63,846 bases of DNA, taken from positions 1 through 63,846 of the forward strand of contig NZ_JAMQQG010000022.1 in NCBI RefSeq assembly GCF_023716925.1, read 5' to 3'. The notes beneath the pieces were generated by a model. It was not told the origin of the DNA. It did not search any database and was given only the letters and a program-made list of their open reading frames with translations. The position numbers were made by a program, and so were the translations under genes. Below are positions 17,627 to 21,568 of this stretch, piece by piece. Numbering within the stretch: the first letter of the stretch is position 1; each line of letters starts with the position of its first letter. Origin of the DNA: Frankia sp. R82 (GTDB lineage: Bacteria > Actinomycetota > Actinomycetes > Frankiales > Frankiaceae).

Positions 17627-18202
17627 TCAGGTGCCCACCCCGGCTGTGCGCGTGGGGGGTTCGGCTGGCAGGGGCTGCTCGAGGTGGTCGAGGTTGACGA
17701 GCTGCTCGCCGCGGGCGCGTTCCCGTTCGGCGAGACCGATGTTGTAGAGGAGCCTGGAAAGGTTCTGTTCCACCAGGCTCTCCACCCACCGTGGAGATAT
17801 GGGAAGCAGGACGGCGCACAGTGTGCCGCTGTTCGTCACGCCAAGCGCCTCGCCCCGGGCGGCAGCCTCGGCGATCACCTCCATGCCAAGTTTCCGGATG
17901 GCCACTTTGCGTAGAGGTGATCGCCAGGGCAGGGGGGGTGCGGGCTCGGTTTCCCCCGTGCTCTCCCAGGAACGGGTCACGGCGACCAGCGGCTCGGCGT
18001 TGGCCCGGTCCTTCTCTGCCATCTGGATGTTGTCCACGAGTCTGGAAAGGTTCTGCTCCACCAGGCTGTGGACCCACCGTGGGGAGACGGGAAGCAGGAC
18101 GGCGCAGAGGACCCCGCCGTTGCTGACCCCGAGGGGTTCGCCGCTCTCGGCAGCCGCTTTCAAGGTCGGTCCTGTGAGCTGCCTGATGCCGGCGATCTTC
18201 AT
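17627..18202 (-). CDS. Tandem-duplicated Phd-like protein
   Basis: A 191-residue protein made of two homologous halves. Half 1 contains GVSNGGVLCAVLLPVSPRWV and SLVEQNLSRLVDNIQMAEKD; half 2 contains GVTNSGTLCAVLLPISPRWV and SLVEQNLSRLLYNIGLAERE. Each starts with a short segment like the beta-strand/helix of Phd/YefM antitoxins (RQLTGPTLKAAAESGEPLGV). I see no classical toxin next to it. The gene faces six 10-bp repeats and a membrane protein gene on the other side. A DNA-binding or anti-effector role is inference. The tail is Pro/Thr-rich. Confidence 0.75.
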   Translation of the reverse strand: MKIAGIRQLTGPTLKAAAESGEPLGVSNGGVLCAVLLPVSPRWVHSLVEQNLSRLVDNIQMAEKDRANAEPLVAVTRSWESTGETEPAPPLPWRSPLRKVAIRKLGMEVIAEAAARGEALGVTNSGTLCAVLLPISPRWVESLVEQNLSRLLYNIGLAERERARGEQLVNLDHLEQPLPAEPPTRTAGVGT

Positions 18203-19559: not shown

Positions 19560-20158
19560 TCAGGGATTCGCCGTGTGACCAGGGTTTATGGCACGGCCGC
19601 GGGCTGTGGCTGGTGGGGGGGTACGGCCGCCGGTGAGTTCGGGGATGCGGGTGCAGAGCGCGGAGCGGCCGACACCGAGCAGCCGGGCGATGGAGCTGAC
19701 GGTGTTCTCGGGCTCGCGCAGCAGAATGCGGGCGTGGCGGATCTGCTCGGCCGACAGCGCGGGGGTCGACCGAGGCGCTGCCCGCGGGCGCGGGCGGCGT
19801 CCAACCCTTCATGCAGGGGCCGGAGGCCGATGCCGCGCCGGCGCAGCTCACCGACGAGGGTGATGAGGTCCTGTGGCGAGCGGGAAAGTCGGTCCAGGCT
19901 CGGGACGACCAGGACGTCGCCGGTGCGAAGGTAGTCCAGACAGGCGGTGAGTTCGGGCCGGTCGGCGTTCTTGCCGGACCGCTTGTCGGCGAGGACCCGC
20001 AGGCAGCCCGTGTCGGTGAGCGCGCGGGTCTGGCGGTCCAGGAGCTGGCCGGCGGTGCACACCCGCGCATCGCCGACCAGGGCACCGGTCGCCGCGGCCG
20101 GTTCGGGTGCGAACGGGTCGTCCAGATCGGCCCTGACAGGTGGATCAACGATCACCAT
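19560..20158 (-). pseudogene. Serine recombinase (resolvase) with Ser-to-Cys change and deletion
   Basis: The minus strand encodes a resolvase/invertase N-terminal domain: ALVGDARVCTAGQLLDRQTR, DKRSGKNADRPELTACLDYL, then VLVVPSLDRLSRSPQDLITL. Family members read ARVSTAGQ, with serine as nucleophile; here that residue is Cys. After GIGLRPLHEG the sequence jumps directly to LDAARARGQRLGRPP, so the normal 30-odd residues before the hinge are missing. The DNA-binding end (LSAEQIRHARILLREPENTV, SSIARLLGVGRSALCTRIPE) continues in another frame. The gene is therefore broken twice. Confidence 0.82.
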
Positions 20159-20297
20159 GATCTGGACCAACGGTCGCCATGATCGGAGTGCAGGAAAACG
20201 GGTCGAGGACTGTTGTTCGACACACAGACTTTCCAACATGTTTCCCGGACAGCAGCCCGACCGCCTTGCCTCGATTCCGATTGCCGTCTTCCGCGTT

Positions 20298-20340
20298 TCT
20301 GATCTTGTCCGGTAATCGAATGATTCCCGACAAGATCAGA
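20298..20340. repeat. 43-bp nested inverted repeat
   Basis: TCTGATCTTGTC at 20298-20309 pairs perfectly with GACAAGATCAGA at 20329-20340, and an inner AATC/GATT pair lies at 20314-20317 and 20322-20325. It is located between the recombinase remnant and a TPR fragment, with no intact gene ending nearby. It could be a recombination or element end rather than a terminator. Confidence 0.55.
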
Positions 20341-20359
20341 ATGGCGGGGTGCGGTCGAG

Positions 20360-20560
20360 AAACAGCGGGCCCAGGAGGCCGGCCGAGTTGTTCGAGAACC
20401 AGGTCGAGCGCGCCGACGCCGTAGCGGGTGTCGGGGTGGTCGTCACCGAGCACCCGCCGCCAGCGGGCGAGAGTGTCCTCGTTCCGGTCCCGCGCCGTCT
20501 GGTACTCCCCCAACACGGCGACGCAGGTCGCCCATAGTGATGGTCGGAAAAACACGGATA
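20360..20560 (-). pseudogene. TPR-repeat protein fragment
   Basis: The minus frame encodes LGEYQTARDRNEDTLARWRR followed by VLGDDHPDTRYGVGALDLVL and EQLGR. This is one unit of the kinesin-light-chain-like TPR found in actinobacterial NB-ARC/TPR regulators (EDTLxRxRRVLGDDHPDT). No ATPase or further repeats flank it. It is a leftover of a much larger gene. Confidence 0.65.
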
Positions 20561-20685
20561 GCATCCCGGGCGTGCTACCGGGAGACGGAGAATCCCACGA
20601 CGACGCCGAGGGCAGCAAAGGACAGCGTACCCGGGTCGTCGCCGTGGGATTCTTCTTGCGTTGCCGAGGGTTTACCAAAAGATTC

Positions 20686-20943
20686 CTACGTCGCCGACCC
20701 GCGGTAGGCGACCGGGCCCTCGCCGGGGAACTGCGCCGCACCCTGGAATGACGCACCGTCGTCGAAGAACGTGATGCTGCCGTTGCCCTGGGGGCCCGAC
20801 CAGGTCACCTGGGTCCCGGTCTCCGGCCGGCCCGACGAGGGCACGACCTGGTTCCGGTTACCGATGACGATCTGCAGGTCGGCGTCCTTGTGCCATTCCG
20901 CCCCCGGGCCGCCCCACTGGATCTCGGTGTGGTAAAGAGACAT
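20686..20943 (-). CDS. OAA-family lectin, single repeat
   Basis: An 85-residue protein resembling one repeat of Oscillatoria agardhii agglutinin, which binds high-mannose glycans. It opens with MSLYHTEIQWGGPGAEWHKD, continues IVIGNRNQVV, and ends AAQFPGEGPVAYRGSAT. The conserved QWGG, W-H, IG-R-Q and GEGP-(F/Y)-RG elements of the OAA fold are in the right order. OAA proper has two such repeats of about 66 residues; this protein has one, with a longer middle. No signal peptide is present. The ATG at 20943 follows a purine-rich GAAGGGGAAG. Natural members can act as dimers or use one repeat. A role in recognising fungal, host or phage sugars is inference. Confidence 0.72.
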   Translation of the reverse strand: MSLYHTEIQWGGPGAEWHKDADLQIVIGNRNQVVPSSGRPETGTQVTWSGPQGNGSITFFDDGASFQGAAQFPGEGPVAYRGSAT

Positions 20944-21568
20944 GCGTCTTCCCCTTCTGCCGGCGTGGCCCGCCGGGCCACGCTTCAACGGGAACAGCGG
21001 GTACGTGAATTCTGTTCACCCGAGGCCAACCAGCCCGGACCGGCCGGCCCACTCGCGTCAAGACATGGATCCCCCGGACGGGAAGTCGGCCACCAACGAG
21101 TCGAGCGAACCTCCGCGGATCCCATCGTAACCACCCTGATACCCGGCGACAACGACTTTGCAGAACAAAAACAGCTACGCCTGTTTATCGACATTATGTT
21201 TGAATATGCGACTTTGACTCCTTTTGGTATGCGGTGTGATTGTCGGGCATCAATGAATGCGACCCGCCGAGCCGGCGCGAACACCATTTGTCCAGGAAGT
21301 GCCACGGACGTTGAATGATCAAGGCCCGCGTGATCACATCCGTTCTGTCCAGGTATGGCCAGACCGCGGAGAGGGCGAGGATCGGCCGCCACGCGGACGA
21401 CCCGAGCAGATCTGTGATCAGCCGCTCCGCCGGTTCGGCGGGGGGCTCCCCGGGTCTTCGGCCCCGCCCTGGCCGTCGTCGCGTGGAAGCTGGGCGGCTG
21501 CCGGCTGCCGGCTGCCGCGGCCGCAAGGGACGAGGGTGCCGGCTGGGTCATCTGCCAGGGACGTGACC
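20944..21568. other. Gap with no recognised gene
   Basis: About 620 bp. Several frames are open, but none carries a recognisable motif. The middle (21180-21300) is AT-richer than its surroundings, which may mark a promoter or foreign DNA. Confidence 0.4.

Follow-up and report, generated by a model that had tools for sequence, protein, structure and literature searches.

A one-repeat member of the OAA lectin domain family in Frankia sp. R82 and its actinomycete relatives

The window, by which we mean the whole 63,846-nucleotide stretch of DNA analysed here from the nitrogen-fixing actinomycete Frankia sp. R82 (contig NZ_JAMQQG010000022.1, positions 1 to 63,846), carries a small minus-strand gene of the OAA lectin family that is present in a single copy in the 6.9 Mb assembly. 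The gene starts with an ATG at position 20943 and reads down to 20686, with MSLYHTEIQWGG...GEGPVAYRGSAT* as its translation; the resulting 85 aa agree with the length given in the original prediction. Read on the plus strand, this segment is interrupted by an internal stop; the original prediction named no strand. The gene and the elements discussed below are as follows:

20686..20943, minus strand: coding sequence, with its stop codon, of the 85-aa one-repeat protein of OAA type (PF17882)
20698..20724, minus strand: codons of residues 74-82 (GEGPVAYRG) with the contact triad E75-G76-P77, matching PTL E56/E123, G57/G124, and P58/P125
20764..20811, minus strand: codons of residues 45-60 (QVTWSGPQGNGSITFF), a predicted extra beta-hairpin, from the model strands and the insert in the alignment
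20908..20919, minus strand: codons of residues 9-12 (QWGG), the putative glycan-contact loop W10-G11-G12, matching PTL contacts W10, G11, and G12
20950..20958, minus strand: RBS-like AGAAGGGGA, 6 nt before the ATG of the lectin gene
20963..20983, minus strand: leader hairpin GCGTGGCCC ggc GGGCCACGC, directly upstream of the RBS and conserved in Frankia and Parafrankia

Aligned Frankia and Parafrankia leaders have a G-rich stretch at the RBS position of the window gene, and the aligned ATG was kept in 12/12 full-length copies compared from these genera, which encode proteins of 85-86 aa. The gene is under purifying selection, with a median dN/dS of 0.17 and a maximum of 0.35 across the 66 pairs among these 12 genes. 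Given this conserved length and low dN/dS, we consider it a real gene. That the gene is the decaying remnant of a lectin that once had two repeats might be suspected from the fragmentary state of some relatives (L014, L069, L070, L071, and L072) and from the resolvase and TPR gene pieces in the downstream flank, but 36 of the 41 loci in named genomes are intact and the aligned ones encode 83-87 aa. Together with the low median dN/dS, this makes such decay highly improbable, and a fragment or pseudogene was rejected on conserved length and dN/dS. Inspection of the N-terminus of the 85-aa protein revealed no signal peptide, as had been claimed, and a secreted lectin was rejected on this basis.

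The lectin gene has a P450 gene on one side and fragments of TPR and resolvase genes on the other. Downstream of it (19586-20756, minus strand), ORFs that overlap one another and match resolvase and TPR proteins look like gene pieces at a rearranged site, and at 17627-18202 (minus strand) there is a gene for a 191-aa protein of two similar halves, weakly Phd/YefM antitoxin-like (below the cut-off). Among the window ORFs searched, only the lectin was common at high identity to the neighbourhoods of 12 other copies, and the other ORFs matched these neighbourhoods at 26-48% identity; a conserved operon for the window copy was rejected, as its neighbours are not common to other copies. When ORFs were chosen by a GC3 rule, the lectin region was syntenic in seven genomes (L073, L074, L075, L077, L078, L082, and L083); the region of L076 was not syntenic with these seven, and the window copy lies elsewhere too. 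In L073, LysR and NUDIX genes flank the lectin, and a sodium:dicarboxylate symporter gene (genome G001; L073 4954-6531, plus strand) is located about 3 kb from it. We presume that this symporter may be FRAAL1390. FRAAL1390 is listed as over-abundant in nodules (3.42-fold) in passages of PMC8951365, and in fumarate-fed cells (6.83) in passages of PMC10252897. A locus-tag literature search for FRAAL1392-1396 and FRAAL1390 returned papers for FRAAL1390 only, and no link of the lectin to nodule expression could be made from the literature searched.

In a Pfam search, the protein matched PF17882, the sugar-binding domain of OAA-family lectins, with 97.5 bits (cut-off 20, E = 5.8e-28) over residues 3-84 of 85 and profile positions 2-75 of 76. 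This was the one significant family, as the second match, DUF3598_N (E 0.26), fell under its cut-off. The NCBIfam model LectinOAAFamily (NF050073) scored 28.7 bits, below its cut-off of 150; this model has 128 positions, which we take to span two repeats, and a low score is expected if it wants both of them. A sequence search of the PDB with E up to 10 returned seven matches, all of them repeat-carrying lectins, two of which are named only 'Lectin'. These results support the 85-aa protein as a one-repeat member of the PF17882 family, a link that comes from sequence rather than from a structure match. They also confirm the single OAA repeat that had been proposed, one PF17882 domain covering residues 3-84, and the blocks named in that proposal are present (QWGG at 9-12, IGNRNQ at 27-32, and GEGPVAYRG at 74-82). 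The longer central segment noted there is real in comparison with the repeats of 3s5v, in which 10 residues face 27 of the query (32-58), and of MBHA, in which 3 residues face 22 (39-60), so that the central insert amounts to 17-19 extra residues. Classical OAAH lectins are built of tandem repeats of about 66-67 aa, two or four in number; with one repeat within 85 aa, the protein is not a classical OAAH lectin.

We aligned 38 one-repeat proteins of 83-87 aa (alignment A3), omitting L032 (its contig is equal in length to that of L009), L042, the tandem L064, and the fragments L069-L072, with copies L002-L005, L007, and L011-L013 represented by their named counterparts. Invariant residues included W17, R30, G43, V46, W48, G53, F59, F60, F66, G68, A70-P73, E75-P77, and Y80-G82, R81 among them. 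Six of these (G43, V46, W48, G53, F59, and F60) belong to the insert and were unchanged in 38/38 rows, as expected of a structural strand, unlike a loose loop. R30, E75, G76, and P77 were likewise kept in 38/38 rows, and G11 and G12 in 37/38 each. These positions can be compared with PTL, for which the binding-site passages of Matoba et al. (PMC8166773) give W10, G11, and G12 with R95, E123, G124, and P125 as contacts of site 1, and W77, G78, and G79 with R28, E56, G57, and P58 as contacts of site 2, and define a 'motif I' as residues 1-26 plus 94-133. From these contact lists, each PTL sugar site therefore joins two repeats (PMC8166773). In our alignment register, R30 falls on PTL R28 and E75-G76-P77 on PTL E56-G57-P58, and sequence comparison indicates that the seven PTL glycan-contact positions (W10, G11, G12, R30, E75, G76, and P77) are all kept in the window protein.

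Position 10 was the variable part of this set: of the 38 proteins, 17 have tryptophan, another 17 threonine, 3 valine, and 1 phenylalanine. In the T10 branch, two residues following the GG are in most cases missing as well, and the sugar specificity in that branch therefore probably differs. The absence of W10 from 21/38 proteins, the N-terminus without a signal peptide, and the label 'hypothetical protein' carried by the one annotated relative that we opened are consistent with a protein that kept the fold and lost high-mannose binding, now serving another ligand or an intracellular role. We consider this unlikely for the window protein, which retains W10, R30, and E75-G76-P77, as do all 12 Frankia and Parafrankia rows.

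The AlphaFold2 model built from the 38-row alignment had a pLDDT of 84.4 and a pTM of 0.71, with seven strand segments (2-9, 17-19, 23-25, 45-50, 53-60, 65-72, and 76-84). Each chain of a classical OAAH lectin has ten strands and two sites; the single-chain model here shows these seven segments, and the chain has one set of contact residues. In a Foldseek search of the PDB, the nine best matches were all lectins of the OAA family (zero matches counted at E <= 0.001), with a best E of about 1e-3 and a probability of 1.00. VIA placed OAA (3obl) first, with Z 8.6 and an rmsd of 1.9 A over 74 residues, a Z to be read against the 7 to 8 that models without a clear match reach and against unrelated barrels, the next of which scored 7.3 (Cap15). 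The VIA alignment set model residues 2-85 onto OAA 2-133 and thus spanned both OAA repeats, from repeat 1 at its start to repeat 2 at its end, in the same way as motif I of PTL; the correspondence of residues with OAA was derived from these aligned ranges. An OAA barrel is therefore the predicted fold of the window protein, and the original prediction, which would have fallen with a different predicted fold, withstood this comparison.

Given that a single chain was supplied to AlphaFold2, the model could not show a dimer. It is possible, with a probability below that of a self-contained barrel, that the protein is instead an obligate homodimer in which a pair of one-repeat chains exchange strands to re-form a two-site OAA barrel, bivalent like OAA. 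PTL sites combine residues of two repeats in the contact lists of Matoba et al. (PMC8166773), and two identical chains could do likewise. Residues 31-40 are a weak stretch of the model (mean pLDDT 63) and are where a hinge would lie, the would-be hinge in the middle segment thus being modelled with low confidence. However, the longer middle adds residues missing from the 3s5v and MBHA repeats, it is modelled as a hairpin and holds invariant residues, and the lone chain already matches across both OAA repeats.

A gene from Catenuloplanes japonicus with two long repeats (L064) offered a further comparison. Its model had a pLDDT of 81.6 (63-72 in the other four models) and was built from 16 rows, among which the one-repeat sequences covered just the first of its repeats. 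Taken by itself, that first repeat (9-90) aligned to OAA 2-133 over 73 residues (rmsd 1.9 A), with a Z of 5.3 that was its best; the second repeat matched other barrels with Z about 4 or less, some over 55-181, and both repeats together matched four-repeat lectins at an rmsd of 12.5-13.0 A. Self-closure of the first repeat is supported by this comparison, from which little can be said about the second.

Our preferred explanation is that the window protein is a leaderless single-domain carbohydrate binder in which one long OAA repeat closes into one barrel with a monovalent mannose-type site, because the single-chain model and the first repeat of L064 both span OAA 2-133. We assign this a probability of roughly 0.5, since a single-chain model cannot show a dimer. 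In PTL, two repeats of about 66 residues form one ten-stranded barrel. In the window protein, the single 85-residue chain would itself supply W10-G11-G12, R30, and E75-G76-P77, and the added beta-hairpin at 45-60 would give strands otherwise provided by a second repeat. The chain could then close on itself into a small barrel with one complete sugar site, and the protein would act as a monovalent mannose-type glycan binder that would not agglutinate unless oligomerised. We infer a monomeric state, one site, and glycan binding, and most likely the window protein works like one half of a classical OAAH lectin closed on itself. As to its role, it is a guess that the protein might bind glycans of the host plant or of microbes, in the soil or in the nodule.

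In the GTDB family of the window genome, PF17882 was found in 13/35 genomes, comprising 10/13 genomes of its own genus, Frankia, and 3/6 of genus g5, one of these three with a C-terminal piece only. Among the broken or partial copies (L070 4277-4360 and L014), the frame in Candidatus Frankia nodulisporulans stops after 27 codons near a contig end, and genome G019 carries only a C-terminal piece of the lectin. A scan of named genomes returned 41 loci, among which were 36 intact stand-alone one-repeat genes, the remainder being the Catenuloplanes gene L064 and four fragments. Actinomycetes, including Frankia, Parafrankia, Actinomadura, Streptomyces, Kitasatospora, and Nonomuraea, contributed 34 of the 36 intact genes, and Symploca and an Acidobacteria metagenome assembly one each, so that looking for comparable one-repeat proteins in this group, as had been suggested, gave a clearly positive answer. 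Being one-repeat is thus unusual against the characterised lectins, as the original prediction had it, but not against genomes, where one-repeat genes are widespread, and the window protein belongs to a widespread, little-studied branch of actinomycete proteins.

Outside the GTDB family of the window genome, PF17882 is uncommon in the phylum, class, and Streptomyces samples: it was found in 2/396 genomes across the phylum (one being the window's own), in 26/393 across the class (13 of them from the window's family), and in 47/392 of Streptomyces. The stand-alone one-repeat type was present in at least 9/392 Streptomyces genomes, a lower bound given that loci of 30 of the 47 matching genomes were examined. 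Eight of these cases came from 28 loci, which also comprised 12 multi-domain genes, 6 without the motif by pattern, and 2 in the wrong frame; L016 was the ninth. In the family of G748, 20/298 genomes matched the one-repeat profile, ten strongly (E <= 6.9e-39) and ten weakly. Multi-domain PF17882 proteins such as L098 (G874) and similar Streptomyces loci have a second sugar-binding domain that is apparently split, profile positions 2-51 and 47-75 being matched about 400 bases apart. The segment between the halves, for example in L098, looks like an F5/8-type-C-like domain. Carriage as phage cargo was rejected, given that none of 50,697 phage records matched at E 0.01 and that, in viral contigs, 10 pattern matches all went unconfirmed in a search with one protein as the query, which detects only close relatives. 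Among plasmid records there were three matches, one being an 11.85 Mb record.

At the DNA level, the window lectin was 96.0% identical to those of two g5 genomes (one of them G020) and 94.0% to that of G006 from its own genus, but only 82-85% to those of four other own-genus genomes, in contrast to rpoB, for which identity was 90.8-91.0% to g5, 92.8% to G006, and 93.7-94.4% to the four. Given that the lectin is closer to g5 while rpoB is closer to its own genus, this Frankia-Parafrankia signature points to horizontal transfer between the genera, or else to paralogy that went unrecognised.

The 9-bp stem of the leader hairpin was present in 13/13 Frankia and Parafrankia leaders compared, including that of L070, the truncated copy; a single cell was unpaired. 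In this small set of 13 related sequences, 99.1% of 117 cells were paired, compared with 90.4% in shuffles and 26-41% in slid-partner controls, and 13 cells at 3 pairs had changed on both sides, a count reached by no shuffle. Two of the five measures were not unusual, namely the number of pairs with two-sided change (62/500 shuffles) and the pair types (59/500). Single-sequence folding z-scores of the leaders ranged from -0.7 to -4.0 (window, -2.1), and within the window an inverted repeat like this one is unremarkable. The presence of G-U pairs speaks for a hairpin in RNA rather than a palindrome in DNA, although the element may also be an operator. The hairpin was not common to 27 folded leaders of other genera, a few of which have stems of their own.

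These observations could be joined into one broader scenario, which as a whole we regard as speculative and rather unlikely. In this scenario, the unduplicated, monovalent OAA barrel would be the starting point from which tandem lectins arose by duplication, loss of the central hairpin, and strand exchange between repeats, and Frankia species would retain a mobile copy, preceded by a structured leader, whose product binds glycans when they live with plants. Given that the stand-alone type was found in at least 9/392 Streptomyces genomes versus PF17882 in 10/13 of Frankia, which are related genomes and not independent, a link to plant life is worth testing.

Frankia lectin genes are reportedly the subject of Pujic et al. 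2012. PMC10520049 names a ricin-B lectin in the passages available, which tie nothing to the window lectin gene, and the passages of PMC11766507 do not mention a one-repeat OAAH. The one-repeat state as such is already in print, in the part of a cyanobacterial survey that describes a single OAAH domain without duplication, possibly of a novel type, in Dulcicalothrix desertica (PMC10655256). In the literature searched, we found neither the actinomycete branch nor the long middle segment described, nor any one-repeat member that had been characterised. The solved OAA-family structures found are all of lectins with two or four repeats, where it takes a pair of repeats to make one barrel. With its extra hairpin, a conserved branch of one-repeat proteins would illustrate how a single unit can form such a barrel, and it would provide a natural monovalent counterpart to a lectin class valued for avidity.

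Among known systems, the two-repeat lectins OAA (3obl), PFA (4fbo), and PTL (7dc0/7dc4) have in common with the window protein the PF17882 repeat, the QWGG and GEGP blocks, the contact residues, and the predicted barrel, but they form one barrel with two sites from two repeats of about 66 aa, whereas the window protein has one 85-aa repeat with 17-19 extra central residues. The four-repeat lectins MBHA (4fbr), BOA (4gk9), and SfL-1 (7umj) belong to the same repeat family but have four repeats, all of them short, in contrast to one here; MBHA and SfL-1 each gave four pairs of matched stretches. The uncharacterised OAAH protein of Dulcicalothrix desertica, likened here by its description in PMC10655256 only, has one domain like the window protein. 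L064 of Catenuloplanes japonicus has the same kind of long repeat as the window protein, with QWGG, a long middle, and NEGPVGYRG, but carries it twice behind an N-terminus that by inspection is signal-peptide-like, whereas the window protein has a single such repeat and, likewise by inspection, no signal peptide.
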